This document shows, piece after piece, positions 26,676-53,165 of a stretch of 64,000 nt of DNA; position 1 is the first letter of the stretch; each line of letters opens with the position of its first letter. The notes beneath the pieces are model-generated. The model saw only the letters and a list, made by a program, of their open reading frames with translations. It had not been told where the DNA came from and did not search any database. The position numbers and the translations under genes are program-made. The DNA is taken from assembly GCA_013177945.1 (NCBI GenBank), contig JABLXW010000020.1, positions 62,001-126,000 of the forward strand, written 5' to 3'. The DNA is from Bacillota bacterium. Its GTDB lineage: Bacteria > Bacillota > DSM-12270 > Thermacetogeniales > Thermacetogeniaceae.

Positions 26676-27503
26676 TTAAGGGGCAAAGGCCAGGATCCGG
26701 GCGAGAATCTCCTGGCGGCGCCTTTCCACTCCCTCAAAGTCCATTGCCTCAACGTAAAACTGCTCCATCTCATCGTGCACCTCTTTTGCCTTTTTAATGT
26801 AGGCAATCGCCCGTGCCAGGGACCGGGCAAACACCTCCCGGGCCTCTCTCAGCTCCTCCCGGCAGGCATTTATAGAGTCCGGATCCAGACAGAAATCGAA
26901 ATCGTACTCCCGGTAAAGGTTCAAACCAGGCAGAGACGTCGGGACAAAATCAAGCTCCGGAAAGAGATTCAAAACCGCAGTTCTTTGCTCCGGGAGGAGG
27001 AGCAGGTCGATCTGGGCCGGGTCAAAGGCGCAGTGGTAAACCTCAAATCTGAACCCGCAGCGGTAAGCAAACCCGGCCAGTTCCTGAAGAACCCTCTCTT
27101 TCCCGGCCCCGGGCTCCCCCTTGAGGACGAAAAGGCGCTCCACCTCCAGAATCGTCGGAAGGTGGTGAACGATCCCTCCAGGCGTGAGGGCCGAGGCAAA
27201 AAGGTGCCGATCTTTCGGTGCTCCATTCCCGCAGGGAATCTCTTTCCCGAAGACCTGCCGGATCAGGTCTCCGGCCAGTTGATTCAACCGCTCAATCCTG
27301 ATCCCCTCGCTCCGGCAGGACTTTTCTTCTTCTCGCGCGATTTTCGCCACCCGGAGGCTGCTGTAGGCAGTTGCAAAATGGCGCGCCACCCGCCTGTTGG
27401 CCGCGATGATTTCTTGTTTGCGGCTCCGCAGCTTCGACTCGTCCCAGTAGTCCCCGAGGTGGACGATCTCGTCAACGGCTCCGGGGTTCCTGGGATCGAA
27501 GAC
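26676..27503 (-). pseudogene. 3' half of a PRK06851-type two-P-loop ATPase gene, split by insertion
   Basis: Encodes about 274 residues beginning FDPRNPGAVDEIVHLGDYWDE and containing a second P-loop (LKGEPGAGKERV) and a long helical C-terminus. The missing 5' half lies 12 kb away at 39867-40130 and ends in the same Gly-Thr-Ala-Pro-His-Val codons. Joined, the two halves give about 362 residues, the expected size of PRK06851-family proteins (function unknown). Here the frame continues in phase from a recombinase remnant, so a chimeric protein of 325 residues starting at GTG 27653 could be made. Its own N-terminal P-loop is absent. Confidence 0.82.
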
Positions 27504-27518
27504 GTGCGGCGCTGTTCC
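27501..27518 (-). other. Left att-like junction (element/host)
   Basis: On the minus strand the core GGAACAGCGCCGCACGTC joins recombinase 3' sequence (upstream) to the ATPase 3' half (downstream). It shares its upstream arm with the site at 36067 and its downstream arm with neither other copy, as expected of a hybrid attL/attR site. Confidence 0.78.
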
Positions 27519-27653
27519 GGAACGCGAAACACCTGCTGCGGCCTGAACACGGGCCTCCACCAGGACCTCTCCTTCGCGCACAACCACCTGTCGAACAAGA
27601 AGATCGAACAGTGCGATGGCGCCCGAAACCCTGATGTATACCACAGCTAGCAC
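27501..27653 (-). pseudogene. Internally deleted serine recombinase (unit A)
   Basis: The first ten codons (MLAVVYIRVS, ending at the catalytic Ser position) match the intact recombinase at 36007-37605, then the frame jumps to its last part (LLVRQVVVREGEVLVEARVQ ... SRSGTAPHV). About 480 codons are missing and a few unrelated codons mark the junction. Without the catalytic core it cannot recombine DNA. The frame remains open into the ATPase 3' half. It begins GTG overlapping the stop of the small gene at 27647, exactly as in unit B. Confidence 0.88.
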
Positions 27654-27817
27654 AGAGGTTCATTCTTTTCCCGCCGGATTTTCTCGAGGATCCGGGCGAA
27701 GGCGTACCTGCGCGCTTCAGCCAGGACCCTCCGGCTCTCTTCCTCGGTGCCGGTGAAAACCACCCGGACGGTGTACTGTACCGGCGCTTTCCGCTCCACC
27801 TTTTTCTTCGCCAGCAC
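27647..27817 (-). CDS. Small basic protein preceding recombinase, unit A copy
   Basis: 56 residues (MLAKKKVERKAPVQYTVRVV...KNEPLC), almost identical to the unit B copy at 37599-37766. One A of the ATG has been lost relative to unit B (GCATGG to GCTGG), so it would start at the GTG at 27815-27817, still in frame, with GGGGGTGG upstream. The stop overlaps the GTG of the recombinase remnant (GTGCTAG). I do not recognise a family. Its fixed place before the recombinase suggests a role in recombination or its control. Confidence 0.6.
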   Translation of the reverse strand: MLAKKKVERKAPVQYTVRVVFTGTEEESRRVLAEARRYAFARILEKIRREKNEPLC

Positions 27818-27853
27818 TCCATCCACCCCCTAAATTCTACGCTGGCGGTGGGT

Positions 27854-27868
27854 TGTCTTATTAAGACA
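27854..27868. promoter_or_regulatory. 15-bp palindrome, probable operator (unit A)
   Basis: TGTCTTATTAAGACA is a perfect inverted repeat (7-bp arms, 1-bp centre). The identical palindrome lies at the same distance before the small gene of unit B at 37807-37821, in surrounding sequence that has otherwise begun to differ. A binding site for a regulator of the recombinase unit is the simplest reading. Confidence 0.55.
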
Positions 27869-27881
27869 GGAAAAATTCCCC

Positions 27882-27914
27882 GAAAAAAAAGAAAAGCCCG
27901 GACACCCGACCGGG
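27882..27914 (-). terminator. Terminator of the methyltransferase operon
   Basis: On the minus strand CCCGG/CCGGG form a stem around an 8-nt loop, followed by CTTTTC and a run of eight T. It lies 170 bp after the last gene of the operon. A further stem (GCCGCAG/CTGCGGC) lies at 27926-27950. Confidence 0.75.
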
Positions 27915-28087
27915 AAGGAAGGTGTCGCCGCAGCTCCTTCTGGCTGCGGCACAAAGGGGGCACCGTGGTCGGGTCCGCCATGCAGAGGGCCGTAACCGTC
28001 CAGATCTCCTGCCCGCATCCTCCCTTTCCGGATCTTCCCTCAGGGCTGCAGACCAAACCTTTGCACCGGTAGTCGCCCGGCAGGGGT

Positions 28088-28438
28088 CTATTGCTGCAAG
28101 CCGGCCAGGCACTCCTCCACCAGATTCTGCACCTCATCCTTTGCAGGGCCGAACACCACGACATTCAGGCTGAGAGAGGGTTTAAAAAAAACGGCGCCGC
28201 TCCAGTCTTTCGAGGCCCGGGTGATCACCTTACCGGGCTTTGTGCAGCTGAAAGCGGCGTAAGGCTCCCCTTCTGTAACAAAGGCCTTGATGTGGCCGGG
28301 CACCACTCCTTTGATGCTCAGCCTTTCCGCCAAGCGCAACAGCAGCCTGGAAACGATCTTTTCAACCTCCTCGGCGCTCATCGGCCGGGACGGCTTCAAC
28401 TCCATCGTTCTGGAAACCGCCGCCTCATGCATATGCAT
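28088..28438 (-). CDS. Small protein of unknown function, end of methyltransferase operon
   Basis: 116 residues with no motif I can name. The start is His-rich (MHMHEAAVSRTM), then a helical segment (AEEVEKIVSRLLLRLAERL) and a beta-rich C-terminus (AAFSCTKPGKVITRAS, LNVVVFGPA). It overlaps the CobW-type GTPase by 14 nt with AGGAGG about 10 nt before the ATG, so the two are coupled. A role in corrinoid or metal handling is possible from context only. Confidence 0.65.
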   Translation of the reverse strand: MHMHEAAVSRTMELKPSRPMSAEEVEKIVSRLLLRLAERLSIKGVVPGHIKAFVTEGEPYAAFSCTKPGKVITRASKDWSGAVFFKPSLSLNVVVFGPAKDEVQNLVEECLAGLQQ

Positions 28439-29027
28439 ATTGCAACAACCTCCTCAGGACCGGTTCCTCAAGGCCTTTAATGAGGGAAGCGGCCAGCACC
28501 TCCGCCCGAGGATTGATCTCTTTTGCCTTCGCCATGAGGCTCTGCAGGGCACTTTCACTCGCTTCGTCGATCTTGCTGGCAACGACCAGATCTGCCTCCG
28601 AGATCTGGGCAAAGATCAGTTCCGGCATGATCTCCGTAAGCTCTTCCCAGCGGCCGGTATCGGCAATAACCAGGGTGAATATATTGTCAATTCCTTTCCC
28701 GTACTTCCCGAGAGTATTCAGTATCGTGCTGGGTCTGGCAATCCCGGTGGCTTCGATGATCAGCCAGTCGGGGTTAAACCGTTCCGCGATCTGGTTCACC
28801 GCAAGGGTCAGTTCACCAGTCAGTTGACAACATATACAGCCCCCGTAGATCTCCCGTACCTGGAAGCCCTCCCGGGCAAGAAACCGGTCGTCGATCCCTA
28901 CTTCTCCGGCCTCATTCTCGATGATGACAACTCTCTGCTCCTTCTGCACGACCAGGTACCCGGCAAGATGCCTGATGAACGTGGTCTTTCCGGAGCCCAG
29001 GAAGCCGCCTACCAGAACGACCCTCAT
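28425..29027 (-). CDS. CobW/COG0523-type metal-handling GTPase, short form
   Basis: 200 residues of the G3E GTPase family. P-loop GGFLGSGKTT (residues about 7-16), the ENEAGEVGID motif, and the metal-binding CICC motif (Cys64, 66, 67) are all present. The usual C-terminal CobW domain is missing, so it is the G domain alone. G3E proteins insert or deliver metals; within an operon of corrinoid proteins, support of cobalt/corrinoid or zinc loading of the methyltransferases is plausible but inferred. ATG at 29025-29027 behind AAGGGGG, directly after the DUF1638 gene. Confidence 0.88.
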   Translation of the reverse strand: MRVVLVGGFLGSGKTTFIRHLAGYLVVQKEQRVVIIENEAGEVGIDDRFLAREGFQVREIYGGCICCQLTGELTLAVNQIAERFNPDWLIIEATGIARPSTILNTLGKYGKGIDNIFTLVIADTGRWEELTEIMPELIFAQISEADLVVASKIDEASESALQSLMAKAKEINPRAEVLAASLIKGLEEPVLRRLLQYAYA

Positions 29028-29029
29028 GC

Positions 29030-29737
29030 CTACCCCCTTCCGAAATCAAACTGCGAAAGGTTCAAAATGGAATCCTTTATGTCCATGAAGTAGTCCATGG
29101 AAAGCTTTTCCCCGGGCTCCAGAACGATAAATCTTTCATCCCAGGGGCCGGTCAGCAGCTGCTTCAGCATCTGGAGGGATCCCTTCACCACCTGGTGCTT
29201 CAGCCCCAGCATTTCGGCGATTTCGTAAGACTTGGCCAGACAGGCATCGTCAAGGGGATAGGCCCCCGTATCGATCAGGACGAGCCGCCTGTAGTGCGCC
29301 AGCATCATTTTCAAAACCCGCTCCGCCCGCTCCCTGCCGTAGCGTTCGACGCAGCGCTCAAATTCCTTGATAATGTTGTTTTCGTTAACGATCCACCCTC
29401 TGGTCAAAAAGTAACTGACCATTTCCCGTGACAACTCTTCTCTCTTTTCATAGGACCCTAACAGGAGGGAGATGCAGTCGTCAACCCTGGGCACGATCAG
29501 CCGGGCGCCGGGAGAGTGCAGGCCCAGCAGCGAGTTGCCGCAGTACCCGTAGCAGAGGATGATGTCCTCCACATTGGTGATTCTGCTCACCGTTTCCTGC
29601 AGTTTCATACGCAGGGCCTCCGGGTGGTTGTGGAGCCCCGATTCCACCCAGATTACCGGGTGCCTCACCCCGGTCTCGGCAATTGCCATATTAACCTCAT
29701 CGCTTATGGTCTGACATGCGATAACGATCGTGCTCAT
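29030..29737 (-). CDS. DUF1638 protein
   Basis: 235 residues. The start IVIACQTISDEVN, the ILCYGYCGNSLLGLHSPGARLIVPRVDDCISLLLGS stretch and the acidic C-terminal region match DUF1638 proteins, which are often found with corrinoid-dependent methyltransferases in methanogens and acetogens; no activity is established. The conserved cysteines (YGYCGN, DDC) could bind metal. It lies between the corrinoid protein and the CobW-type GTPase, 12 and 2 nt away, within one operon. Confidence 0.82.
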   Translation of the reverse strand: MSTIVIACQTISDEVNMAIAETGVRHPVIWVESGLHNHPEALRMKLQETVSRITNVEDIILCYGYCGNSLLGLHSPGARLIVPRVDDCISLLLGSYEKREELSREMVSYFLTRGWIVNENNIIKEFERCVERYGRERAERVLKMMLAHYRRLVLIDTGAYPLDDACLAKSYEIAEMLGLKHQVVKGSLQMLKQLLTGPWDERFIVLEPGEKLSMDYFMDIKDSILNLSQFDFGRG

Positions 29738-29749
29738 GGCCGCGCAACC

Positions 29750-30427
29750 TCATCTGGCCGTCCTGTGGCAGGCAGCGTACCTGCCCTTGCCGCGTTCCTT
29801 AAGCAGCCTGCTGCAGAGTTCGGCGCCTTCTGTGCAATTCTTCGCCCAGTAGTCTGCGCCGGTGTAGCTGCAGACGACTTCATTCACCAGGCCCCCGATG
29901 ACGATCACCGGGCGCCGTTTCCCCATCCGCCTCTTTATCAGGCAAACGGTCTTTTTCATGGAATCGTATGCGTCAGAGATCAGGCCGGACAGGCAGAGTA
30001 TGGGAGCGCCGGTTTGCCGGAGCTTTTCCAGGAATGTCACCGGAGACACGTTGACGCCCACATCAAGCACCTCCAGCCCGTAATGGCGCATCGTCACAAT
30101 CGTAATGTTTTTGCCTATATCATGGATGTCCTTTTCCACGGTGCCGAACACAACCTGAGGAGGCCGGCCCTGGCCTGCGGCCCCACCGGCGGGTCCCAAC
30201 ACAACCTGCTGGGCGCGCTTGTAGATATCGGCGGCCATCACCACATCGGCCAGGAAGTACTCCCCCCTGTTGTACCTTTCCAGCACAATCTCCACCCCGG
30301 TCCTTACCTCCTCCAGGAGCATAAAGGGATCCATCCCCCTTGCCAGGCCGTTGCGGACCAGGGAAATGGCCTTTTCCTCCTGGATCCCTGCAACAGCAGA
30401 AACTATGAGCTTGCGCACCGCCTCCAT
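29750..30427 (-). CDS. Corrinoid (methyl-carrier) protein
   Basis: 225 residues with the two modules of MtaC/MtvC-type proteins: a helical cap (about residues 1-75, ending YFLADVVMAADIYKRA) and a B12-binding Rossmann domain with DIHDIGKN, giving His102 as the lower cobalt ligand, then VSPVTFLEKL and VIGGLVNE. It carries methyl groups between methyltransferase I and II. It differs clearly from the corrinoid protein at 33781, so the operon has two carrier types, perhaps for two substrates. It follows the GntR-family regulator. Confidence 0.92.
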   Translation of the reverse strand: MEAVRKLIVSAVAGIQEEKAISLVRNGLARGMDPFMLLEEVRTGVEIVLERYNRGEYFLADVVMAADIYKRAQQVVLGPAGGAAGQGRPPQVVFGTVEKDIHDIGKNITIVTMRHYGLEVLDVGVNVSPVTFLEKLRQTGAPILCLSGLISDAYDSMKKTVCLIKRRMGKRRPVIVIGGLVNEVVCSYTGADYWAKNCTEGAELCSRLLKERGKGRYAACHRTAR

Positions 30428-30445
30428 CGCCGATCACTTCCCCTC

Positions 30446-31165
30446 TCATGGTCGTGAAACAGCCTTCAAAGTAAAACGGTCGCCGCGGCAGATCATCTTC
30501 GACCATCCGATGGGCCGGTTCTTTGCGGCATAGATGATCTGTTCTATGCACAGGGCGGGAAGTCCTGCCCTGGCATCCAGCAGCTCTGCCTCCTCCTTTG
30601 TCAGGATGCAGGGAGAAACCTCCAGGACATTTTTCACAGATACCAGCTCGGTGTGCCGGGCTACCAGGTCCGGAAAGGCGGCGTAGGCGATTTCCTTTTC
30701 CAGCAGAGGAGCTCCTCTGACATAAGGCAGAAAGCGGGAGTCAACGGCAACCGGCCCCCTTTCATCAGAAAGGATGCGCCTGATCTTCAGAACTTTGTTC
30801 CCCTTTTTCACACCCAACTTGTGCGAAATCTTTTCATCTGCAGGAATAATTTCCACCTCATGGAGCTGGACGCCGAACCCCCTGTTCTTCTCAAAGATCT
30901 TTTCTTCAGAGAAATCCAGCACCAGGGTGTCCATGCGGGGGGATGCAACAAAGCTCCCCTTCCCCTGGACGGACTCGATATAGCCGTCTTTTGCCAGCAG
31001 CTCCAGCCCGTGGCGCACGGTCATGTGGCTGACACCGTACTGCCTGGCGAGCTGGGCTGTTGAGGGGATCATGTCTCCGGGCTTCAGTTCGCCCCGGTCG
31101 ATTTTGGTTTTGAGGTCTTCCGCCACCCGGTAGTAGGCGGGAACAAAAGAGGTGCGGGTCTTCAT
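30446..31165 (-). CDS. GntR-family regulator (HutC/UTRA subfamily)
   Basis: About 239 residues: an N-terminal winged helix (YRVAEDLKTKIDRGELKPGD, PSTAQLARQYGVSHMTVRHGLELLAKDGYIE) and a UTRA ligand-binding domain (KVLKIRRILSDERGPVAVDSRFLP). The ATG at 31163-31165 is where homology begins; a GTG or TTG further up is possible. It lies inside the methyltransferase operon between the UroD-type genes and the second corrinoid gene and probably responds to the methylated substrate or a product. No operator was identified. Confidence 0.88.
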   Translation of the reverse strand: MKTRTSFVPAYYRVAEDLKTKIDRGELKPGDMIPSTAQLARQYGVSHMTVRHGLELLAKDGYIESVQGKGSFVASPRMDTLVLDFSEEKIFEKNRGFGVQLHEVEIIPADEKISHKLGVKKGNKVLKIRRILSDERGPVAVDSRFLPYVRGAPLLEKEIAYAAFPDLVARHTELVSVKNVLEVSPCILTKEEAELLDARAGLPALCIEQIIYAAKNRPIGWSKMICRGDRFTLKAVSRP

Positions 31166-31285
31166 CAAAATCTTACACACTCCCGTGAACACGGGCACCC
31201 GCCGCCCCGGCGGAGAGACAGGTGCCCGGTCTATGTTTTTTTAATACACCCGATAAATCCGGAAACTCTCCCCAAGGCAGGCAGT

Positions 31286-32392
31286 CTAACCCCTGACTGA
31301 ATCGATCATCGCCTTGACGTTTTCCGGTTTGGCGTTGGGAGGAATGTCGCAGCCCTGGGCGAGGATGAATCCGGAGGGCCCGATGTTCTCGATCAGACGC
31401 CTGCAATAGCCGTAAACCTCATCCGGAGTTCCCAGGGACAGCAGGGCCGCCGGCACATCCCCCATGATGCACATGTGGTCCCCGAGAATCTCCTTGGCCT
31501 TGAAGATGTCGGTGGACCCGTCCGGGGAGAAGACGCACTTACCCCTGGGAAGCTCCCGCAGGTATTCCAGGTCCCTGGTCCAGCTGGAATCGAAATGCAG
31601 AATGGCAATTACTCCTTCCTCAACCACCGTTTCCACCAGCTGCTTGAAATAGGGAAAAACAAACCTCCTCCACAGCCGCGGAGACAAAAACTCGCTCGCC
31701 GAACGCCAGCCCCCTACCCAGACACCGAGGGGTTTGGTGGCGCGCAGCGACTTTCTGGCGTTTTCAACTATGTCCACCATGGCCGCATCCATGGCAGCCT
31801 GAACTTTATCGGGAATCCTGTAAAGGTCCTTCAAAAAAGCCTGCAAAGACCGGCCTCCGCAGAAGTTTTCATACGGGATGGTGAGGTTTCCTCCCCTGAA
31901 AAGCACAATCCCCCGATTTTTCAAATTTTCTGCAGCCTTAGGTTGATACGCCAAAAACGGCTGCAGTTTTTCCCCTAAATTATCGAGCCTGTCCCTGTAG
32001 TACTCCATGAGAAAACGGTTGTAACCCTTTTCAACTATAGCATCGTAATCTTCCACCGTCATCAGTTCCTGCTCGTCGATCTGCCAGAGTTCGTCATCCG
32101 GCAGATCCCTGCCCGGTATCTTAATTTTAGAGAGCCAGAGGGTTTGGAGGGTCAGAACATAGAATGAAGCCCCTTGCAAGCCGTCGACCTCACCCAGCCT
32201 GGAGAAGGATTCAAGGATGGTCTTATGAGACAATTCGGGGTCCATACAAAAATCCGCCAGCTTGACACCCATATGCCTGGCGCAGAACGAATCTCCCAGG
32301 GGCACCACCGGCACCCGGTCGGGCTTGCCCAGGGCCACGGCCGTCTTGATGCGGTTTAAGCGCTCCTCGTACAGCTCCCTGGCAGTTGCCAT
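31286..32392 (-). CDS. UroD/MtaA-superfamily corrinoid methyltransferase (copy 1)
   Basis: 368 residues of the uroporphyrinogen-decarboxylase-like methyltransferase superfamily (MtaA, CmuA, MtvB). The barrel motifs NLTIPYENFCGGRSL, LHFDSSWTRDL and GCDIPPNAKPENVKAM are visible; the His of LHFD and the Cys of GCD are at the usual zinc-ligand positions, with Asp where MtaA has Cys. With a corrinoid protein and a methyl-THF methyltransferase alongside, it is best read as methyltransferase I, moving a methyl group from an unknown donor (perhaps a methoxylated aromatic) to the corrinoid. The first 33 residues are identical to copy 2. Confidence 0.87.
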   Translation of the reverse strand: MATARELYEERLNRIKTAVALGKPDRVPVVPLGDSFCARHMGVKLADFCMDPELSHKTILESFSRLGEVDGLQGASFYVLTLQTLWLSKIKIPGRDLPDDELWQIDEQELMTVEDYDAIVEKGYNRFLMEYYRDRLDNLGEKLQPFLAYQPKAAENLKNRGIVLFRGGNLTIPYENFCGGRSLQAFLKDLYRIPDKVQAAMDAAMVDIVENARKSLRATKPLGVWVGGWRSASEFLSPRLWRRFVFPYFKQLVETVVEEGVIAILHFDSSWTRDLEYLRELPRGKCVFSPDGSTDIFKAKEILGDHMCIMGDVPAALLSLGTPDEVYGYCRRLIENIGPSGFILAQGCDIPPNAKPENVKAMIDSVRG

Positions 32393-32543
32393 TTACGCCA
32401 CCCCCAGCATCTTTTTGGCAATCTCCACACCTGCCGGGGCGTCCACGCAGTAAGCATCCGCCCTCGCGTATCTGCAGGTGGCCTCATCCACGGGTCCTCC
32501 GCCCACCAGGACCTTCACTCCCTCCCGGAGCCCGGCCTGCTCC
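32295..32543. repeat. 249-bp direct repeat, copy 1
   Basis: Appears base-for-base identical to 33683-33931. It spans the first 98 bp of the UroD-type gene and the last 151 bp of the preceding corrinoid gene; outside it the two UroD genes diverge sharply. This indicates a recent duplication or gene conversion. Confidence 0.85.
32393..32543 (-). pseudogene. C-terminal remnant of a corrinoid protein gene
   Basis: About 49 codons (EQAGLREGVKVLVGGGPVDE ... AKKMLGVA) identical to the C-terminus of the corrinoid protein at 33781. Upstream of the repeat edge the sequence loses similarity; a TTG-started frame to 32587 exists but lacks the cobalt-binding His. It is a duplication scar and cannot bind corrinoid. 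Confidence 0.85.
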
Positions 32544-32673
32544 GGAACCTCGACGGCAATCTCCGGTTCGTCAGGGCCTTCCCCCAAGGAATCCCGTCAG
32601 GTCGATACAGACCCGGGCGCCCGCTTCCGGGGGGAAGAGATGCGGGCACCCGGACAGGCAAATCCGGAAGGAC

Positions 32674-33780
32674 TCAACCCTTGGCAGACTCGATCATCGC
32701 CTTGACGTTTTCCAGCTTCGCAGTTGTGGGTATGTCGCAGCCTGATGACAAAATAAAGCCGGCGGGGCCGATGTTGTCAATCAATTTCCGGCAGTAACTA
32801 TACACATCATCCGGGGTTCCCAGGGCAAACATAGAGGCAGGCACATCCCCCATGATGCACATGTGATCTCCCAGGATCTCCTTGGCCTTGAAGATGTCGG
32901 TGGCTCCGTCCAGCGCCAGCACGCACTTTCCCTTCGGGAAGGCGCGCAGGTATTCAAGATCCCGGGTCCAGTTGGAATCAAAATGCAGAATCGCGATCAC
33001 GCCTTCGTCCGTGACGGCTTCAACCAGCTGCTTGTAATACGGAAAAACGAACTTCTGCCACAGCCGCGGGGACAGAAACTCGCTGGCAGAGCGCCAGCCC
33101 CCGACCCAGACGGCAATCGGCTTCAGGTTCTGGCAAAGAGCCTTTGCGTCGTTGATGATTTCCGCCATGGCTACGTCCATGGCAGCCCTTACCTTGTCCG
33201 GCAGCCGGTAAAGATCCCTCAGAAAAACGCTCAAAGAGCGACCGCCGCAAAAGTTTTCGTAAGGTATGGTTAAAACCCCCGGCGACAGGGGAACGAGCCC
33301 CTGCTCTTCCGTAGCCCTGATGGTCTGCGGGATGCTCTCTAAAAAGGGTCTGACTTTTTCCTGCACGTTGCCCAGCCTGTTGGTGAAATAATCGTTCAGG
33401 AAATAACCATACCCCTTGTTGATGATAACGTCGTAGTCCTCTTCTTTCATCAATTCCTGTTCATTAACCTGCCAGAGGTCGTCATCAGGGAGATCGCGTC
33501 CAGGTATTTTCACATCGGAAAGCCACAGGAGGCAGAGGGAGTAAACATTGTACGTGGTTTGCTGGATCCCGTCCACATCCCCCAGCTGCGCAACGGCCCT
33601 GAGAATGGTTTCATTGGCAAGCATCGGCTCCGTACAAAACCTCGAGAGCTTAACGTTCATGTACTTTGCAAACACGGCGTTGCCCAGGGGCACCACCGGC
33701 ACCCGGTCGGGCTTGCCCAGGGCCACGGCCGTCTTGATGCGGTTTAAGCGCTCCTCGTACAGCTCCCTGGCAGTTGCCAT
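32674..33780 (-). CDS. UroD/MtaA-superfamily corrinoid methyltransferase (copy 2)
   Basis: 368 residues, same length and fold as copy 1: VLTIPYENFCGGRSL, LHFDSNWTRDL, GCDIPTTAKLENVKAM. The shared Asn-Phe-Cys-Gly and His/Cys zinc-site positions suggest the same chemistry, while scattered differences through the substrate barrel suggest another donor or specificity. It follows immediately (no gap) the stop of the corrinoid protein gene at 33781, so the carrier and this methyltransferase I are the natural pair. Confidence 0.88.
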   Translation of the reverse strand: MATARELYEERLNRIKTAVALGKPDRVPVVPLGNAVFAKYMNVKLSRFCTEPMLANETILRAVAQLGDVDGIQQTTYNVYSLCLLWLSDVKIPGRDLPDDDLWQVNEQELMKEEDYDVIINKGYGYFLNDYFTNRLGNVQEKVRPFLESIPQTIRATEEQGLVPLSPGVLTIPYENFCGGRSLSVFLRDLYRLPDKVRAAMDVAMAEIINDAKALCQNLKPIAVWVGGWRSASEFLSPRLWQKFVFPYYKQLVEAVTDEGVIAILHFDSNWTRDLEYLRAFPKGKCVLALDGATDIFKAKEILGDHMCIMGDVPASMFALGTPDDVYSYCRKLIDNIGPAGFILSSGCDIPTTAKLENVKAMIESAKG

Positions 33781-33931
33781 TTACGCCACCCCCAGCATCT
33801 TTTTGGCAATCTCCACACCTGCCGGGGCGTCCACGCAGTAAGCATCCGCCCTCGCGTATCTGCAGGTGGCCTCATCCACGGGTCCTCCGCCCACCAGGAC
33901 CTTCACTCCCTCCCGGAGCCCGGCCTGCTCC
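33683..33931. repeat. 249-bp direct repeat, copy 2
   Basis: Partner of 32295-32543. Here the repeat lies in intact genes (5' end of UroD copy 2 and 3' end of the complete corrinoid gene), so this is probably the source copy. Confidence 0.85.
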
Positions 33932-34410
33932 AGGGCTTCGACGGTGGCCTTCAGGCTTTCAAAGCTGGTGGTCAGCAGGCAGGATAAACCCACAAGCTGC
34001 GGTTTGTGCTCCCTTACCGCCTCCACAAACTTCTGGACGGGGACATCCACTCCCAGGTCGATCACGTTGAAGCCGTTGCTGGTGAAGACAAGGGCCACGA
34101 TGTTCTTGCCGATGTCGTGAATGTCGCCGGCCACCGTTCCCAGCACCATCGTCCCGACGGTCTCCCCCGTCCTTCCCTTGAGTTTTTCCTGCAAGGGCTC
34201 TACCGCCTTTTTAAAAATATCTGCTGCCATGATCAGCTCGGAAAGGTAATACTCCTGGGCCTGGTAGCGTTCTCCGATGATCTCCATTCCCTTTTGCAGT
34301 GCTCCGAAGATCTGCTCCGGAGGAACTCCCTCCTCCAGCTGCCTCTTCACCTCGGCGTAAACCTCTTCCTCCATCAGGTCGCCCATGAAGGTAGCCAAAG
34401 ACTCGCCCAT
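33781..34410 (-). CDS. Corrinoid (methyl-carrier) protein
   Basis: 209 residues: helical cap (EEEVYAEVKRQLEEGVPPEQ, ending YYLSELIMAADIFKKAVEPL) and B12 domain with GDIHDIGKNIVALVFTSNGF, His98 being the cobalt ligand, then SCLLTTSFESLKATVE and KVLVGGGPVDE. ATG at 34408-34410, 8 nt after GGAGGGG; a longer frame upstream lacks a better site. It lies between the methyl-THF methyltransferase and the UroD-type gene, giving a complete MT-II/carrier/MT-I set like MtvABC of acetogens. Confidence 0.93.
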   Translation of the reverse strand: MGESLATFMGDLMEEEVYAEVKRQLEEGVPPEQIFGALQKGMEIIGERYQAQEYYLSELIMAADIFKKAVEPLQEKLKGRTGETVGTMVLGTVAGDIHDIGKNIVALVFTSNGFNVIDLGVDVPVQKFVEAVREHKPQLVGLSCLLTTSFESLKATVEALEQAGLREGVKVLVGGGPVDEATCRYARADAYCVDAPAGVEIAKKMLGVA

Positions 34411-34552
34411 TTTTGCTTCCCCTCCAGTCTGAAATAGTCTCTTCACACCTGCTTCACCGCCGGAAGCGCATACATCGAAGGAAACTTCGGTTTAACCGTT
34501 TACCCCATCTCCACCTCCCCACCGGAAAATTGAAGGCGTGCCACCTAGACTT

Positions 34553-35344
34553 TCATATCATCCCTCTGCGGTAAGCGTTCAGATAGGCGCGGCAGTAGCG
34601 GTCCTTCCCGATCAAGGCTTCCGTGGTGTAAATGCTCCCCATCAGGTCTCGATCGAGGGGATCGAGAATCGCCGAATCCATTCCCTCGTAGAGGGCAATG
34701 ATCAGGAAATGGCGGTTGATTACCTTTCGCTTCGGCAGTCCGAAGGAGATGTTGCTTAAACCGGAAGTGATCTTCACCTGCGGAAACTCTTTCTTGATGC
34801 GGCGCATCACTTCCACGAATTTCAACATCGACTGGCCGTCGGTAGAAAGGGCGATCACGAGGGGGTCGATGTAGATCCTGTCGGGCGAGATCCCGAATTC
34901 CTGAGCCTTGCCGAGCAGGCTTCTGGCAATGTCCAGGCGAGTCTCCACGTCTTTCGGGATCCCTCTGTCGTCGAGGGTGAGTGCAATCACATCCCAGCCG
35001 TACTGCTTCGCCAGGGGGAAAATCCTCTCCGGCTTGTCCCCTTCCCCGGAAACGGAATTGATCAACCCCCGCTCACCGGCATAAGGGATCACCTCAGCCA
35101 GAGTCTCGGGGCTGGGGCTGTCCAGACACAGGGGGATGTGCACCACTTCCCGCACCGTCTCCACCAGCCACCGCAGGCTTTCCACTTCCCTGCCCGGCTC
35201 GGTCCCGGCGCAGAGATCGAGATAATCGGCGCCGGCAGCCTCCTGGTCACGGGCCAGCTTCTGGATAAACTCCCTGTCCCGCCTCGCGATGGCCTCACCC
35301 ACGGTTTTGAGGGTGCCATTAATCTTCTCACCGATGATAATCAT
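34553..35344 (-). CDS. Methyltetrahydrofolate:corrinoid methyltransferase (MT-II, DHPS-like barrel)
   Basis: 263 residues of the pterin-binding family (AcsE, MtvA, MtgA). Motifs: IIIGEKINGTLK at the N-terminus, AGADYLDLCAGTEP, LINSVSGEGDK, and TSGLSNISFGLPKRKVINRHF, all characteristic of methyl-THF methyltransferases. It would move the methyl group from the corrinoid protein to THF (or the reverse), feeding the Wood-Ljungdahl methyl branch. First gene of the operon, 139 bp after a consensus promoter. No reductive activator of corrinoid is in this cluster. Confidence 0.92.
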   Translation of the reverse strand: MIIIGEKINGTLKTVGEAIARRDREFIQKLARDQEAAGADYLDLCAGTEPGREVESLRWLVETVREVVHIPLCLDSPSPETLAEVIPYAGERGLINSVSGEGDKPERIFPLAKQYGWDVIALTLDDRGIPKDVETRLDIARSLLGKAQEFGISPDRIYIDPLVIALSTDGQSMLKFVEVMRRIKKEFPQVKITSGLSNISFGLPKRKVINRHFLIIALYEGMDSAILDPLDRDLMGSIYTTEALIGKDRYCRAYLNAYRRGMI

Positions 35345-35482
35345 CCGGCCAATCCCCTTTTGCGCTTAAAGTTTCCTCGGGAATTCTCCCTCTTTCACCG
35401 GGGCCGCCCCGGCGATGCTTCCGGAGCCGGAGCACAGCCCGCACCAACTTCTTCAACATGGATATATAACTAGATTACTTTA

Positions 35483-35511
35483 ATTATATGATAACTCTGC
35501 CGGGAGATCAA
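35483..35511 (-). promoter_or_regulatory. Sigma-A promoter of the methyltransferase operon
   Basis: On the minus strand TTGATC (35506-35511) and TATAAT (35483-35488) are 17 bp apart. It precedes the methyl-THF methyltransferase by about 140 bp and is the only strong promoter found in unit A. Confidence 0.8.
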
Positions 35512-35590
35512 CCAATTTATTGTCCGCTTCCTCGGTGTTGAAAACCGGCCCGGGCCTCAAGCCAGGCCCCGCTCAAACAAGGGGAAGTAA

Positions 35591-35944
35591 GTAAAATTAC
35601 GCCGCAGGCACGGCTTCGAACCGAAAGAACCCGCACTTGTGAACGATTACGAAACGTTGCTGCTGACGATCCAATCGGGATTTGGAATAGCGGTGCTGTC
35701 GGCCAACATGAAAAAACAAAGCAATCCGTGCAGCACCTTTGTCGATATTGAGGACGAAGACTGCGTCATTACAAGAAGCATAATATACAAATCCAGCAAC
35801 ACCAATCCTGCCATCCCCCTTTTTCTCAAGCAGTTCGATTACCTGAAGAACGAACTGCTGCTCCATCAATACGCAAGAAAAACGATGAGCAACGAAATGT
35901 TCCCGTTCCGCAAAAAAATAAAAACAGACCTGCCGTTACCTTGA
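35591..35944 (+). pseudogene. LysR-type regulator, C-terminal effector-domain remnant
   Basis: An in-frame stretch RRHGFEPKEPALVNDYETLLLTIQSGFGIAVLSANM continuing to FLKQFDYLKNELL resembles the C-terminal part of LysR effector domains (the 'aGxGiailp' turn and closing helix). There is a stop at 35588 and no DNA-binding domain. Base composition is more AT-rich than its surroundings, as expected of foreign or decayed DNA. It lies near the unit A/B junction and points away from the methyltransferase operon. Confidence 0.6.
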
Positions 35945-36006
35945 AAAACAAACCGGCCAGTTGAGAAAATCAAGCAGGCCGGCCGCGCAAACTGCTGCTT
36001 ATGACA

Positions 36007-37605
36007 TCAACGCCGCGGCAGCTGCGCCGCCGCGGCCGCCTCGAAGGGTTTCGATGGAGGAACAGCCACGTGCGGCGCCGTTCCGGAACGCGAAACACCT
36101 GCTGCGGCCTGAACACGGGCCTCCACCAGGACCTCTCCTTCGCGCACAACCACCCGTCGAACAAGAAGATTGATCAGTTTTTCCTTTTCTCCCCAGCTCA
36201 GGTCGTCAAGCCGCCCGGCTACCTGGCGGGCAAGCTCCCGCAGGGCCTCTACTCCCCGCTCGGCAAGAAGAGCGGCCTGGCGCGCCTCTTCGAGCTCCTT
36301 CAGGCGCGCCTCCAGGACGGCCTTTTCCCGCCCGACGTCCAGCACCGCCCGCTCGAACATCTCCACATCCACCAGCCCCCGGCGGTAGGCCTCAAAGGCC
36401 CGCTCCCGCTCCCGCTTCAACTGTTCCAATCTCTTCTGCACAAGGTTTATCTCATTCTCAATCCGTCCGCCTGCCTCCTGGTGTGCGTCCCTGAACAGCG
36501 CCTCGGGGTCGTTCAGCCATTCCTTCACTTTTGCCCAGACCGCCTCCTCCAGAACGTCTGCCCGGTGCATTCTGTTCGCACATTTGGGTGCAGGCTCCCG
36601 GCGGTCTCCGTTGGCCCGGTCCCAGGTGTTCAGGCAGGCGTAGTACCTGTACGTCCTGTTTTTAGAGTGGCCGCTTTGGCCTGCCATGGCGCGGCCGCAG
36701 AGACCGCAGGCCACCAGCCCCGACAAATGGTAGCTGTGGACGCGCCCCCCGCGGCGGCCTTTCTTTGCTCTAGAAAGTTTTTCCTGCAGGGCAGCCCACT
36801 TCTCAGGCTCTATGAGGGCGGGAACGGGCACGGCAATCCAGTCTTCTTTAGGGCGCTCCCGGCAGGTCGCCTTCTGGCCGCGCTGCCGGGCGGCCTTGAT
36901 TCCCTCGGCGTTGTAACGGTTCAGATACAGTTCGCCGACGTAGGTTCGGTTTTTCAATATCCGCCGCACCGTCGCCCTGTACCATTTATCCCCCTGCGGT
37001 GCAGGCACCCCTTCGGCGTTGAACTGCGCTGCTATCGCTTCCGGTGACATCCCTGACAGGGCCATCTCCACCATGCGGCGGTATACCGCCGCCCGGTCTT
37101 GGTCTACCTCCAGCTTTCCGCTGGAGTGCCTGTAGCCGTACACCCTCGGGTCGTGGGTCAAAAGGCCGCGGCGCGCCTTCGCCAGCTTTCCGAAGCGGCT
37201 CCGCGCTTTAAACTTCTCCTTCTCGTATTCGGCGATGGCGCCCCGGAGGGAGTAGAAAAGCCTTCCCTCAGGGGTGTCCTGCCATTCGCACGTTACGAAC
37301 TCAAGCCTGCAGCCGACCTTTTCGATCATCTCCATCAGGAGCAGCTGGTGGGCCAGCCTCCGGGAGAGCCTGTCCGGGTCGTAGACGACAAACCAGGCGG
37401 CTCCTGCGTTGACAGCGGTGAGGGCCGCCTGGAGACCGGGGCGCTCCAGAATCTCCCCGGTAACCCCTTCGTCGCGGTAGACCTCCACCTGCGCTGCGCC
37501 CAGTTCCCGGGCCTTTTTTCTGCAGGCTGCTTCCTGTGCCTCCAGGGAGTACCCGTGCCGCGCCTGGTCTTCTGTAGAAACCCTGATGTACACTACGGCT
37601 AGCAC
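36007..37605 (-). CDS. Large serine recombinase (unit B)
   Basis: 532 residues. N-terminal catalytic domain with the nucleophile Ser10 in VVYIRVSTEDQ, plus VYDPDRLSRRLAHQ; a recombinase domain (VYGYRHSSGKLEVD to RTYVGELYLNR); a zinc ribbon (CGLCGRAM with later Cys residues near YYACLN); a coiled coil (about 395-470); and a C-terminal tail. The last 25 residues read through the att-like core: SRSGTAPHVAVPPSKPFEAA. It starts with GTG at 37603-37605, overlapping the stop of the small gene. It probably integrates and excises this element; all catalytic features look intact. Confidence 0.93.
   Translation of the reverse strand: MLAVVYIRVSTEDQARHGYSLEAQEAACRKKARELGAAQVEVYRDEGVTGEILERPGLQAALTAVNAGAAWFVVYDPDRLSRRLAHQLLLMEMIEKVGCRLEFVTCEWQDTPEGRLFYSLRGAIAEYEKEKFKARSRFGKLAKARRGLLTHDPRVYGYRHSSGKLEVDQDRAAVYRRMVEMALSGMSPEAIAAQFNAEGVPAPQGDKWYRATVRRILKNRTYVGELYLNRYNAEGIKAARQRGQKATCRERPKEDWIAVPVPALIEPEKWAALQEKLSRAKKGRRGGRVHSYHLSGLVACGLCGRAMAGQSGHSKNRTYRYYACLNTWDRANGDRREPAPKCANRMHRADVLEEAVWAKVKEWLNDPEALFRDAHQEAGGRIENEINLVQKRLEQLKRERERAFEAYRRGLVDVEMFERAVLDVGREKAVLEARLKELEEARQAALLAERGVEALRELARQVAGRLDDLSWGEKEKLINLLVRRVVVREGEVLVEARVQAAAGVSRSGTAPHVAVPPSKPFEAAAAAQLPRR
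36067..36084 (-). other. Internal att-like site between units A and B
   Basis: GGAACGGCGCCGCACGTG on the minus strand, inside the recombinase reading frame. Its upstream arm matches the site at 27501 and its downstream arm (GCTGTTCC) matches the site at 39867, so it has both element arms and looks like an attP-type site or a tandem junction. Confidence 0.75.
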
Positions 37606-37766
37606 AGGGGTTCACCCTTTTCCCGCCGGATTTTCTCGAGGACCCGGGCGAAGGCGTACCTGCGCGCTTCAGCCAGGACCCTCCGGCTCTCTTCCTCGGT
37701 GCCGGTGAAAACTACCCGGACGGTGTACTGTACCGGCGCTTTCCGCTCCACCTTTTTCTTCGCCAT
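37599..37766 (-). CDS. Small basic protein coupled to recombinase (unit B)
   Basis: 55 residues, MAKKKVERKAPVQYTVRVVF followed by TGTEEESRRVLAEARRYAFARVLEKIRREKG and a Cys-terminated tail. ATG at 37764-37766 has GGGGGTGG 9 nt upstream. The stop overlaps the recombinase GTG (GTGCTAG), so the two are translationally coupled. I know no family for it. Basic helix-rich proteins of this size next to a serine recombinase include directionality factors and repressors, so either is possible. The near-identical copy in unit A shows it is a fixed part of the element. Confidence 0.72.
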   Translation of the reverse strand: MAKKKVERKAPVQYTVRVVFTGTEEESRRVLAEARRYAFARVLEKIRREKGEPLC

Positions 37767-37806
37767 GCACTCCATCCACCCCCTAAATTCTACGCTGGCG
37801 GTAGGT

Positions 37807-37821
37807 TGTCTTATTAAGACA
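37807..37821. promoter_or_regulatory. 15-bp palindrome, probable operator (unit B)
   Basis: TGTCTTATTAAGACA, identical to 27854-27868 and at an equivalent distance (about 40 bp) before the small gene. Confidence 0.55.
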
Positions 37822-37868
37822 GGAAAAAATTCTGGTTGCTGCCGTCTTTCACAAAAAAATCACCCCCG

Positions 37869-37899
37869 AAAAACGAAAAACCCGGTCATTGACCCGGGT
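37869..37899 (-). terminator. Terminator of the multicopper oxidase gene
   Basis: On the minus strand ACCCGG and CCGGGT form a stem with an 8-nt loop, followed by TTTTTCGTTTTT. About 165 bp separate it from the oxidase stop; the gap between holds no gene. Confidence 0.75.
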
Positions 37900-38064
37900 A
37901 CTCTCCATCTTTTTAGTGGCACTGTATGTAATCTCAGTCCCCTTTTCATCGGGGTTAGGAGTGCCCATGCCGGCGCACAATAAAGGGCGCCATGCGGCAC
38001 CCCCTTTAGCATCTGTCAACCGCTGCCCATAAACATGGAACCACAACACGAACCGTTCCCTGCT

Positions 38065-39702
38065 TCAATCCTGAGGGCATGTATGGGGCGGTTCGGTTAT
38101 GGCAGGCGGGTCCGCCTTATAGTCAGATCCAGGGAAATCGGTTTCGATTATCATCAACTGCCCGCCGGGATAGACACCATTATTGGTGACCTTGTAATCG
38201 TCATGATTATGGGCGATGTAAAACTGCGGGAAGAAAAAGTTGTCCGCCGTAGCCGAACCATAGTTCCAGGCGGCCCAGTTATACGGAGAGATAAAAGAGC
38301 CGCGCCCCAGACCTGTTTGCAAGATGATGTCCGTCCACAAATCTCTTGCACCGGGGGAAGGCGGTATAAAGGTACCGGCTTCTTTTGAGCGTTCTGTGGC
38401 GCTGGCAACCTGCTGTTTCAGTGACGGGAAACCCGCTTTACCGCAGAAAATGTAATCAGCATAGGTGCTCCGCTTATCGTCGGCGGTGTAAAGGACGTCG
38501 TAGCTCTCGCCGGAACCGACAAGGGTGGTAAAATTCATTTCGTGAGCCGGATTATTCATATCAGCTACCCTTGGGTGGGTATCTTTCCCGACGATCAGGC
38601 CCATCCACCCGTGTGTATGGAAAGGTACGGGTTGATACCCCACGTTAATCAGGCGAAGCAGGAATTTATCTGGAGGCCGTATCTTATTCTGATGAAGGGT
38701 TTCGGCAGATTCGGCATCGTCCAGGTATTCATAATCCTCATGTTCTGAGTCCCCAAAGAAAGGCGTTTTTGAGTGCTTCTTTCTTCCTGTAGATACCCTG
38801 ACATAAGCATCATAACCATCAGGGATGCTGTAGCCGAAATCGGGTACCAGGTTTTCCGGCAAGGTGGTTGGGAGGAGGGTATCGGGAAAGGCGCGGCCGT
38901 TAATGAGCCACCAATCAGGTTTGTAATCAACCGGGTTGAATTCGGTCTGCTCGAACACCGCCTGGTGCCATCTGGAATCAATGTCTGAGAGAAGTACAAC
39001 CCAATCGCTATTGAAAAAGGTATTTATATCGTTATAGGCAAAGTTCCTGTTAGTAGCCGTAACGGGAATCTGGGGCTGCGGTATCCAATTCAAGGTCCAG
39101 CCTCTACGTTTATCTTTCCGGATTCCCGCTTCGGCAAGGCTTTTCATGGAAGGGTAAACAATCAAGGCGCCGTACATCCCCATCTGGACGTGCTCAGAGG
39201 CTTCGTGGTGACAGTGGTAGAAAAACGAGCCGGGGCGTTCCGGTTTGAAGAAATATGTTACGGTGATTCCCGGTGTACCCGGCGGTGTTACAGGCACACC
39301 AAACGAAGTTTCGGGAACGCCATCGAGCTGGGTCGCGATGTGGGCGCCATGGATATGAATCGTATGGAGATCGAGTATCGGCGGGTCGGTAAGGAACAAT
39401 CCGAGATTGGTGAGAGTGAGATACAGCTCATCCCCCACCTCAATGTCGATTCTCGGAGAAGGTATTACTGCCTTCCCCCTCAGAGCATCCAGATTTTCCG
39501 GCAGCGTCGTGTCAAACTGAGGATTAACTATTTTTTCAGGACCCGCAGGTCTCCCGCAGTCATCGATTGACTGCACCTTATAGAGCCCGCCAACAAACCC
39601 GAAAACATAGACTTTCTTGCGTGGTGCTGTCCCGGTGGGGTCGGTCGGCAGGTTGATGAAACCGTCAGTTGCAAACAGGTTCCAGAAATACCTTTTTGGC
39701 AT
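38065..39702 (-). CDS. Multicopper oxidase (CotA/laccase superfamily), no signal peptide
   Basis: 545 residues with cupredoxin-type domains. Copper motifs seen: LHTIHIHGAH (HxH), FYHCHHEASEHVQMGMYG (His-Cys-His with following His and Met, a type 1-like site) and VPFHTHGW (HxH). The C-terminal region has AHNHDD instead of the usual HCHxxxHxxxM. There is no N-terminal signal peptide, as in spore-coat CotA. ATG at 39700-39702 behind AAGGGGG. The substrate (phenolic, metal or other) is unknown; an oxygen-using enzyme in an apparent anaerobe is noteworthy and fits acquisition as element cargo. Confidence 0.82.
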   Translation of the reverse strand: MPKRYFWNLFATDGFINLPTDPTGTAPRKKVYVFGFVGGLYKVQSIDDCGRPAGPEKIVNPQFDTTLPENLDALRGKAVIPSPRIDIEVGDELYLTLTNLGLFLTDPPILDLHTIHIHGAHIATQLDGVPETSFGVPVTPPGTPGITVTYFFKPERPGSFFYHCHHEASEHVQMGMYGALIVYPSMKSLAEAGIRKDKRRGWTLNWIPQPQIPVTATNRNFAYNDINTFFNSDWVVLLSDIDSRWHQAVFEQTEFNPVDYKPDWWLINGRAFPDTLLPTTLPENLVPDFGYSIPDGYDAYVRVSTGRKKHSKTPFFGDSEHEDYEYLDDAESAETLHQNKIRPPDKFLLRLINVGYQPVPFHTHGWMGLIVGKDTHPRVADMNNPAHEMNFTTLVGSGESYDVLYTADDKRSTYADYIFCGKAGFPSLKQQVASATERSKEAGTFIPPSPGARDLWTDIILQTGLGRGSFISPYNWAAWNYGSATADNFFFPQFYIAHNHDDYKVTNNGVYPGGQLMIIETDFPGSDYKADPPAITEPPHTCPQD

Positions 39703-39833
39703 GATTAACCCCCTTAAAAACCAAGTCAGTGGTTGATGGTTTTTATATTTTATGATTTACCGGTACAATCGGTTCCCGGTTTTCGATCTCCGCACTGATG
39801 CTGAAGCGCCGACGAATGGCAACAACCGATTAC

Positions 39834-40130
39834 CTAAGTAAACCCACGTTCGCACACGGGAACCGCCACGTGCGGGGCTGTGCCGTCGATCAGCGCAACG
39901 CGCAAAGCCGGGATCACAACGGCATCGAGCGATTCGTTGTCGGAGGAACACCAGTGAAACTCGATATCATAACCCCGTTCCTGCATCTCTTCCCCAATCC
40001 GCTGCATAAAAGTGGACTTCCCGACACCGGGACCCCCTTTAATAACAAAAATCCTGGCGGCGTCCTCTTCGATGATATTGTCGTAAAAGGAATAGAATCC
40101 GAGGCAGGTATTCCCGCCGGGAAAAACCAT
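39834..40130 (-). pseudogene. 5' half of the split PRK06851-type ATPase gene
   Basis: From the ATG at 40128-40130 (AAGGGAAGG upstream): MVFPGGNTCLGFYSFYDNII, P-loop GGPGVGKSTF (about residues 32-41), HWCSSDNESLDAVVIPALRVALIDGTAPHV (88 residues), then ten element-encoded codons (AVPVCERGFT) and a stop. The remaining 274 residues are at 26676-27503. If expressed it gives only the first P-loop module. In the ancestral order it lay downstream of the trxB terminator and upstream of hemC. Confidence 0.84.
39867..39884 (-). other. Right att-like junction (host/element)
   Basis: GGCACAGCCCCGCACGTG on the minus strand joins the ATPase 5' half (GCGCTGATCGAC upstream) to the element arm (GCGGTTCC downstream). 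The core differs from the other two copies at a few wobble positions, consistent with its host origin. Confidence 0.78.
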
Positions 40131-40206
40131 CCTGACCTTCCCTTTACCCAAAACGAAAACCCCCTCTCGAAAAACTTGGTTGGCTAAGGCTTCACACAAA
40201 AGATCA

Positions 40207-40233
40207 CAAAAAAAGCGTCTACCGCGAGACGCT
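40207..40233 (-). terminator. Terminator after the thioredoxin-reductase-like gene
   Basis: On the minus strand AGCGTCT and AGACGCT form a perfect 7-bp stem with a 6-nt loop, followed by seven T. Confidence 0.88.
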
Positions 40234-40275
40234 CCTCTCACTATCTTTATTTAATTTATTAGGCCTCCTCCCCAA

Positions 40276-49157: not shown

Positions 49158-49310
49158 CACAAACAGGGGCACAAACAGGGGGCAAACAGGGGGACGGTTC
49201 TGCTGTTTGTCCCCTTCATGGCTTACAAACGGGGGGCGGTTCTACTGTTTGTCCCTTTGTTTGGATGCGCAAACATGAGGACCGTCCCTTTGTTTGTGTG
49301 TGCCTTTGTT
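49158..49310. repeat. REP-like palindromic repeats
   Basis: Several short copies of acaaacaggggg, gggacggttctgctgtttg and the reverse-type caaacatgaggaccgtccc lie back to back. The same words flank transposase remnants at 53166-53414 and 54510-54761. They resemble repeats associated with REP-type tyrosine transposases of Firmicutes. Confidence 0.75.
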
Positions 49311-49332
49311 TGTGTAGGTTCATTACTGCAGT

Positions 49333-49791
49333 TCACACTACAGGCATTTTCCCGAACTTATTCTGCTCGTATAACTGAAGCAGTTCCTTGCCGATGTCCG
49401 GGTTGAGCCGGCTGACCTGCATCAGATAGAGGAGTGCAATCCCCTCGTAATTGATGTTTTCCCCCAGCAAGGCCAGTTCCAGGGCGCTGCGGGTGACGTT
49501 AATGACGCATTCCTCTTCGTGGTTGTCGCGGCATCCCTGGCACTGCAGCAGCACCTCTGCCAGGGCAAGGATCAGGTCGGGCTGGTAGTAGGCCCGGAAG
49601 TCGCGCCTGGGAAGATGCCGGGTGCCCCCGGGAATTCTAAAGGAGTGCTTTTGTTGAGAATAGTCGAGGGCTATCTGGCAGTACCCGATCAGGCAGCTGA
49701 CCTTTTCGCATTTGTTGCACTCCGCTTCGGTTTTACAGCAGCGGTCCACTGCCGCCCGTACCTTTTCGAGGTTGATGTCTCCGGAAGCCAC
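49333..49791 (-). CDS. Cys-rich protein next to sulfite-reductase-like gene
   Basis: 152 residues, no family named with certainty. An N-terminal cysteine array (DRCCKTEAECNKCEKVSCLIGYC) and a second group (LQCQGCRDNHEEEC) could bind a metal or Fe-S cluster; the rest is helical (ALELALLGENINYEGIALLYLMQ). GTG at 49789-49791 is 7 nt after GGGGGG and 3 nt after the SiR-like gene, so it is a co-transcribed partner. Its last codons are duplicated at 54440-54492. Confidence 0.65.
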   Translation of the reverse strand: MASGDINLEKVRAAVDRCCKTEAECNKCEKVSCLIGYCQIALDYSQQKHSFRIPGGTRHLPRRDFRAYYQPDLILALAEVLLQCQGCRDNHEEECVINVTRSALELALLGENINYEGIALLYLMQVSRLNPDIGKELLQLYEQNKFGKMPVV

Positions 49792-49794
49792 GGC

Positions 49795-50511
49795 TCAACC
49801 CCCCAGTCCGGCAAAGCTGAGAAAGTCGCTTTCTTCCTGGCTGCGGTACTTCGCGAGGAAATCTTCGGAAGGAAGAAACCTTTCGAGGCCGACCCTTTCG
49901 ATGGTGTTGCAGATCCGCTCTTTCGGCTCGGCGCATTCCGTATAGGTCTCGAGAATGGCTTCCAGCAAAGCAACGGCACCTTCGCCGTTAATACCTTCGG
50001 CTATCAGCGTTCCGTGTACCGGCTTCCGGCTTCCCCCCCGTCCCCCGAGGTAGATGCTGTACGCATCTTCACCTGTGGCTACAATGCCGTAATCGGCGCA
50101 GTACGGGTCCGTACAGCCCCGGTGGCAGCCGGCAACGGAGATTTTAAAATCCCGGGGTGTGGGGCGGTTCATAAACCTCTCCTGCAGTTCCCCACCCAGG
50201 CTGAAAACGTCGCTGAGGGCGCGCTGGCACAAGTCTTTGTTGCCGGCGCAGGCCTTGACGTTGCGAACGATTTCTCCAAAAACCCCGATGCGCAAACCCA
50301 GCGCGGCAACTCCTTTTCTCAGTTCTTCCAGCCTGTCCGACGGTATTAAAAAGATCAATGTCTGGCGGGTGGTCATCTTGCAGTACTGGCAACCGGTTGT
50401 TTCCGCCAGCTTCCCCAGTCCGGCGAGCTGTGCCGGGGTCAGCAGCCCGCATTTGGATACAATTCCGACGCCAAGGACCCCTGAACGTTGTCTGAAAATG
50501 GCGTCTCCCAC
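49795..50511 (-). CDS. Small siroheme/Fe-S sulfite or nitrite reductase-like protein
   Basis: 238 residues, the size of assimilatory-type small sulfite reductases, not the 500-residue enzymes. The coupled siroheme-[4Fe-4S] motif is present: Cys88 and Cys95 (CAGNKDLC) and Cys129 and Cys133 (CHRGC), with a ferredoxin-like N-terminal lobe (CQYCKMTTRQTLIFLIP). GTG at 50509-50511, 9 nt after GAGGAG. The substrate cannot be told from sequence: sulfite, nitrite, or a non-catalytic siroheme role. Siroheme would come from the CobA/HemD branch. Confidence 0.83.
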   Translation of the reverse strand: MGDAIFRQRSGVLGVGIVSKCGLLTPAQLAGLGKLAETTGCQYCKMTTRQTLIFLIPSDRLEELRKGVAALGLRIGVFGEIVRNVKACAGNKDLCQRALSDVFSLGGELQERFMNRPTPRDFKISVAGCHRGCTDPYCADYGIVATGEDAYSIYLGGRGGSRKPVHGTLIAEGINGEGAVALLEAILETYTECAEPKERICNTIERVGLERFLPSEDFLAKYRSQEESDFLSFAGLGG

Positions 50512-50733
50512 TCTTGATCACTCCTCTTATTTGAATACTGTCCAGCTGTCAAGCAACTGGAAGCAAAAATATTATCCTTTATGTTTTTTTTCATGTGGAG
50601 AGCATAGTTGTCCGCATTTACAGGCGCAGAGTAATCTAAAACAGCTATTGGAACAAATCCAATTTTGTAATCATTATAATTTAATGGACAAAAAAATGCA
50701 ACAGTTACCACAGCCCCGTCGGCATCACTTTAT

Positions 50734-51945: not shown

Positions 51946-51972
51946 GGCTTATCACCTTGTGTCGTGCATTCC

Positions 51973-53154: not shown

Positions 53155-53165
53155 AGCACACAAGC

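Follow-up and report, generated by a model that had tools for sequence, protein, structure and literature searches.

An earlier note on a 64,000-nucleotide stretch of a Bacillota genome (the window) placed the attachment core of a serine recombinase inside that recombinase's own reading frame, and it proposed that the resulting change of C terminus could either act as a switch between integration and excision or simply produce a fusion. Is the variable tail a functional part of the protein, or a by-product of where the attachment site lies? The overall explanation that we consider very probable is that the tail is an overhang of the attachment site, that the fusion is incidental, and that two tandem elements split a host gene encoding a dual-wield NTPase (dwNTPase).

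Tandem elements and their attachment sites

A single host gene in the window, that of a PRK06851 dwNTPase, contains two related serine-recombinase elements arranged in tandem. Read along the minus strand, the order is dwNTPase N half, unit B, unit A and dwNTPase C half; unit B carries a multicopper oxidase gene, a small ORF and the recombinase gene, in that order, and unit A carries a corrinoid/methyltransferase-type operon followed by a recombinase stub. The features are as follows.

26676–27653, minus strand: fused ORF of 325 aa, comprising 51 residues of stub and 274 of the dwNTPase C half
27485–27530, minus strand: attR, unit A stub joined to the host C half; probable crossover 27505–27506
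27506–36071: unit A element, ~8.6 kb; cargo is the corrinoid/methyltransferase-type operon at 28088–35344 (minus strand)
36007–37605, minus strand: unit B large serine recombinase, 532 aa, defined by Pfam, the ends of relatives' alignments and the junction
36055–36095, minus strand: complete attP-like site where units B and A meet, GGAACGGCGCCG-CA-CGTGGCTGTTCC; probable crossover 36071–36072
36073–39871: unit B element, ~3.8 kb; cargo is the multicopper oxidase gene at 38065–39702 (minus strand)
37602–37772, minus strand: small ORF, ~55 aa, its stop overlapping the start of the recombinase gene; also conserved in front of related recombinases
39834–40241, minus strand: dwNTPase N half with the first P-loop, truncated after DGTAPHV and ending in the element tail AVPVCERGFT
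39850–39895, minus strand: attL, host N half joined to the unit B left arm; probable crossover 39871–39872

Both host halves match NCBIfam PRK06851 models and, joined at the core, they make one continuous ATPase of 362 residues counted from the conserved start, which is probably at 40130; the host gene is cut such that precise excision would restore it. The B-A order could stem equally from recombination of attP with attL or attR or from homologous recombination of an A circle with an integrated B, for which the nearly identical recombinase genes would supply the homology.

Several other features lie in the window. Two URO-D-type genes stand in tandem in the unit A operon (31286–32392 and 32674–33780), with their flanks repeated, which suggests an internal duplication. 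A perfect palindrome, TGTCTTATTAAGACA, occurs upstream of both recombinase operons (at ~27852–27868 and ~37805–37821) and is a possible operator. Outside the elements, long near-identical direct repeats lie at 49183–56012; for example, 52551–52850 and 54774–55073 are 100% identical.

The unit B protein has the domains of a large serine recombinase (Pfam Resolvase, E=3.4e-32; Recombinase, 2.2e-23; zinc-ribbon, 1.1e-13), and its conserved body stops near residue 499, where the alignments to most relatives end. Beyond this point the frame runs ...SRSGTAPHV AVPPSKPFEAAAAAQLPRR* across the core CCGCACGTGG, and the junction sequences confirm that the attachment core lies within the recombinase frame. 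The truncated N half of the host ATPase carries the core again at 39865 (...DGTAPHV AVPVCERGFT*), and a further copy, at 27502, reads ACGTGCGGCGC; ACGTGCGG is common to the three junctions (27502, 36068 and 39868). About 8 bp are shared at the core, in keeping with the short identity between attB and attP of large serine recombinases. The core is also more than a chance match, as the attP reconstructed from the two arms is symmetric about CA (p=0.02 for unit B, p=0.0015 for unit A), with 9–11 of 12 arm positions complementary around this central dinucleotide in recombinase families 1 and 2. As judged from the sequence, CA is the probable crossover dinucleotide, and it falls both in the His-512 codon of the recombinase and in the His codon of the host DGTAPH motif. 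A palindromic crossover (the CG of ACGT), which would account for opposite orientations, was set aside, as the symmetry favours CA. The arms of both units meet at the B/A junction, and therefore a complete attP is present in the chromosome.

The last 20 residues of the recombinase lie past the crossover and are encoded by the left arm of unit A, whereas the left arm of unit B itself (39850–39871) encodes AVPVCERGFT*, with which the circular form of unit B would be predicted to end. The earlier reading of AVPPSKP after the core is thus correct for the tandem arrangement but not as unit B's own tail, being the left arm of unit A; that the tail differs among circular, tandem and integrated states is borne out by the arms and junctions. 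We propose that attP overlies the 3′ end of the recombinase gene, such that the codons after ~499 would be mostly attP arm. Strand exchange at CA would join partner DNA, whatever its sequence, and translation would proceed to the next chance stop past His-512, yielding 11 residues in the unit B circle, 20 in the tandem and 275 in the stub of unit A; in that stub, the GTAPHV codons of host and element share one frame. The variable tail is then probably a neutral overhang of a compact int-attP module. Its neutrality in the unit B recombinase, the exact crossover bases and current mobility are what we infer.

The interrupted dwNTPase gene

PRK06851 proteins are dual-wield NTPases; Clostridioides difficile CD3298 is cited as one that plays a part in spore dipicolinate (PMC10949312). 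CD3298 is listed under sigma-E control (PMC3789822), and spores of a deletion mutant largely lack Ca-DPA (PMC10449524). The core encodes D87–H92 in the published numbering (assigned by motif), a region among the conserved residues given as putative active-site groups (PMC10949312). Across 299 genomes of the phylum, which are not phylogenetically independent, spoIVA is present in 207 of 212 genomes with a dwNTPase versus 42 of 87 without one (Fisher p=1.7e-23). The two halves rejoin exactly, as in interrupted sporulation genes, the sporulation link here coming from this co-occurrence and from the CD3298 literature.

Eight genomes have the dwNTPase gene interrupted at one and the same GTAPH codon, namely the source genome, five from the same family (G003, G004, G009, G011 and G019) and one from each of two other families (G053 and G020); spoIVA is present in all seven of these that were checked. 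The gene is intact in G002, G005–G008, G010 and G015–G018, and outside the family nearly all dwNTPases among the listed hits are full-length proteins. One genus provides a natural pair of empty and occupied sites (G010 intact, G009 split). At least four recombinase types are found at this codon: that of unit B and L053, family 2 (~37% identity), that of G053 (54%) and that of G020 (42%). All are related, and the common target may be an inherited specificity rather than an independent choice. A scan of named genomes found only three recombinase relatives, including L053 (6248–6420), a 65% identical recombinase in the same gene in reverse orientation, which abuts the N half and reads it antisense.

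Traces of repeated insertion are seen at the locus: G011 has two dwNTPase N halves (L063 1573–1845 and 3762–4025) whose left arms belong to different families of element, and beside the intact gene of G010 lies a further, decaying N half (L065 3943–4187). The recombinase clade also has a second landing site, in feoB near an LTNVF motif (L066, L098 and L099), where the orientation of the insertions varies (L066 and L098 versus L099). Closer relatives of the recombinase, in G003, G286 and G177, are inserted in feoB.

The small ORF recurs upstream of recombinases in L053, L057, L058, L060, L066, L098, L099, L100, L101 and L103; its conserved part spans ~44–60 aa, and in almost all relatives its end meets or overlaps the start of the recombinase gene. 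Compared with Pfam and PHROG, it gave no significant match. We regard it as a candidate directionality factor.

As an addition to the explanation above, the dwNTPase gene could be a recurrent, regulated insertion point of skin-like elements, in which mother-cell excision at sporulation, via the small ORF, restores the gene for spore Ca-DPA and the dwNTPase is made only there. We offer this as a tentative idea, more doubtful than not. It is consistent with the tracking of sporulation by the dwNTPase, with the sigma-E control and Ca-DPA role of CD3298, with the same-codon split in eight genomes, and with a 50–60-aa ORF adjoining the recombinase, close in size to SprB (58 aa) and GirX (6.5 kDa). 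However, the recombinase genes of family 2 are 87–94% identical in nucleotide sequence and the adjoining host C halves are 61–81% identical; the recombinase DNA being more alike than the host DNA, these elements are recent arrivals. The split dwNTPase of G011 is decaying, and a second, distant dwNTPase paralogue (29% identity) is intact in the source genome. A search by eye for a sporulation promoter upstream of the recombinase gave no clear match. Of the host C halves, the G009/G010 pair (dS 0.09, dN 0.024) is too recent for inferring continued function, and the divergence of the other pairs mostly predates insertion.

The fusion ORF and the recombinase tail

The ORF at 26676–27653 confirms that the unit A remnant is in frame with 274 residues of the host ATPase. 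It starts with the recombinase GTG, and the stub, which ends in GTAPHV, has ~10 residues from the N terminus of the recombinase fused to ~36 from its C terminus through an in-frame internal deletion. Because so little of the recombinase is retained, the product is not an active enzyme bearing a long tail; the suggestion that the outcome is simply a fusion holds for this stub, and we consider the recombinase-dwNTPase fusion incidental. The fusion might instead supply a promoter and start for the host C half, with the split NTPase working as two polypeptides. The ORF is indeed open over 325 aa from its GTG, and G003, G004, G009 and G053 have an ATG a short way upstream, in frame with the C half. 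In contrast, G019 has no ATG, GTG or TTG there before the core, the frame relation varies among elements, and the predicted fold ties the halves by long-range contacts (PMC10949312), all of which makes two working polypeptides unlikely.

The other proposal was that the tail is a switch, in which the C terminus of the circular form favours integration or is unstable, and the host-joined form favours or blocks excision. Its premise is sound, as attP truly lies in the coding frame and the tail changes upon integration, and there is precedent in mycobacteriophages, where a repressor gene that encodes a C-terminal degron contains attP and the integrase is degron-tagged (PMC9262239). The relatives nevertheless make a switch very unlikely. 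Among the copies with an assigned junction, which leave out G201 and a second copy in G053, a frame running through the core is seen in units A and B, L053, L066, L098 and four members of family 2. In G053, G177 and G020 the frame closes ahead of the junction; these are relatives of the kind that the earlier note had named as evidence against its reading, with att cores outside the recombinase gene. Specifically, the G053 recombinase (54% identity, dwNTPase target) stops 5 bp before the crossover, that of G177 (63%, feoB target) stops ahead of the host half, and that of G020 (42%, dwNTPase target) stops well ahead of it, with another gene between. Those that cross the core do so in differing frames, and the resulting tails are unrelated and ~4–60 aa long, including ~60 aa of antisense feoB in L066 and L098. 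Such lengths are of the order expected from chance stops (mean run ~21–31 codons at 50–60% GC).

Family 2 is the most telling case. Its members G003, G009, G019 and G004 use the same host codon as unit B and read the core in another frame, and despite their near-identical recombinases each integrated copy has its own short tail from host DNA (G003 HDAARFRSQKPGGG, G009 HGPARGRSPEPRGGR, G019 HDAACGRPPLSGGC and G004 HGTTCF). We compared synonymous with nonsynonymous changes in these four members, a test that covers few sites; for family 1, units A and B offer too little divergence and too little length for the same comparison. The ratios were 53.5:29.5 in the body and 1:5 in the pre-core codons for G003–G009, and 106:51 and 0:5 for G019–G004; with both pairs pooled, the body differs from the 24–27 pre-core codons at p=0.0002. 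The pre-core DNA is nonetheless 92–95% identical, as high as the whole gene. In family 2, the pre-core DNA is conserved as an att arm, without detectable protein-level constraint.

The tails of units A and B themselves also speak against a switch. Neither of the circular-form tails, AVPVCERGFT and AVPPSKPFEAAAAAQLPRR, shows by eye an ssrA-like LAA or degron end, and in the tandem the integrated unit B bears a circular-type tail. In both unit A and G011 the left arm encodes 19 residues between GTAPHV and the stop, a match that might point to tail retention, yet where the codons of the two arms differ, the residue mostly differs too. These results argue for the tail being an att overhang, short of proof for the unit B protein. 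Mis-joining of the tandem copies or of the split gene in this draft assembly of 55 contigs is extremely improbable, as both halves and both units lie on a single contig and the same split occurs in independent genomes, including the single-contig G019.

Relation to known elements

The gene-intervening elements comprise skin in sigK, SPbeta in spsM, gin in gerE, vfbin in spoVFB and vrin in spoVR, all insertions that are excised on sporulation, and yin in yabG. Like these, units A and B are large serine recombinase elements in a sporulation-associated gene with a short shared core, from which precise excision would restore the gene. They differ in that the PRK06851 dwNTPase is a new target, that two elements lie in tandem, that several recombinase types use one codon, and that a directionality factor and excision at sporulation are putative here. 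Units A and B, like gin, have no evident phage genes, and no close relatives of the recombinase were found among viral contigs, so there is no phage context.

The integration-dependent immunity of mycobacteriophages BPs and Brujita likewise places attP in a coding gene whose C terminus is altered by integration, but there the gene is the repressor, the integrase is a tyrosine enzyme and integration removes an ssrA-like degron; units A and B have neither a degron nor a conserved tail. In the archaeal suicidal integrases, attP lies in the integrase gene (PMC8371274). Integration of the SSV1 type splits and inactivates the enzyme, whereas here the crossover at codon 512 is past the body (~499) and the integrated enzyme is whole. 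The defining features of the suicidal-integrase and BPs-type mechanisms are absent here. Recombinases of PHROG 95 (Pfam PF00239-PF07508-PF13408) share the full domain set and a symmetric attP with a central dinucleotide; unlike them, the unit B gene overlaps attP at its 3′ end and its C-terminal residues depend on the partner.

These results set an eye-catching but probably neutral tail apart from a testable feature, the dwNTPase gene as a landing site. In the open-licence literature we found no paper that names it as an insertion target, and by their sequences units A and B and their relatives are candidate skin-like gene-intervening elements at a target not found reported there. A conserved, spore-associated NTPase as the landing site common to several serine recombinases is the part worth following up, and these elements also provide serine recombinases whose att sites are defined and symmetric, with naturally empty sites as controls. 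If excision is developmental, the list of skin, SPbeta and gin would gain a gene tied to calcium dipicolinate loading.
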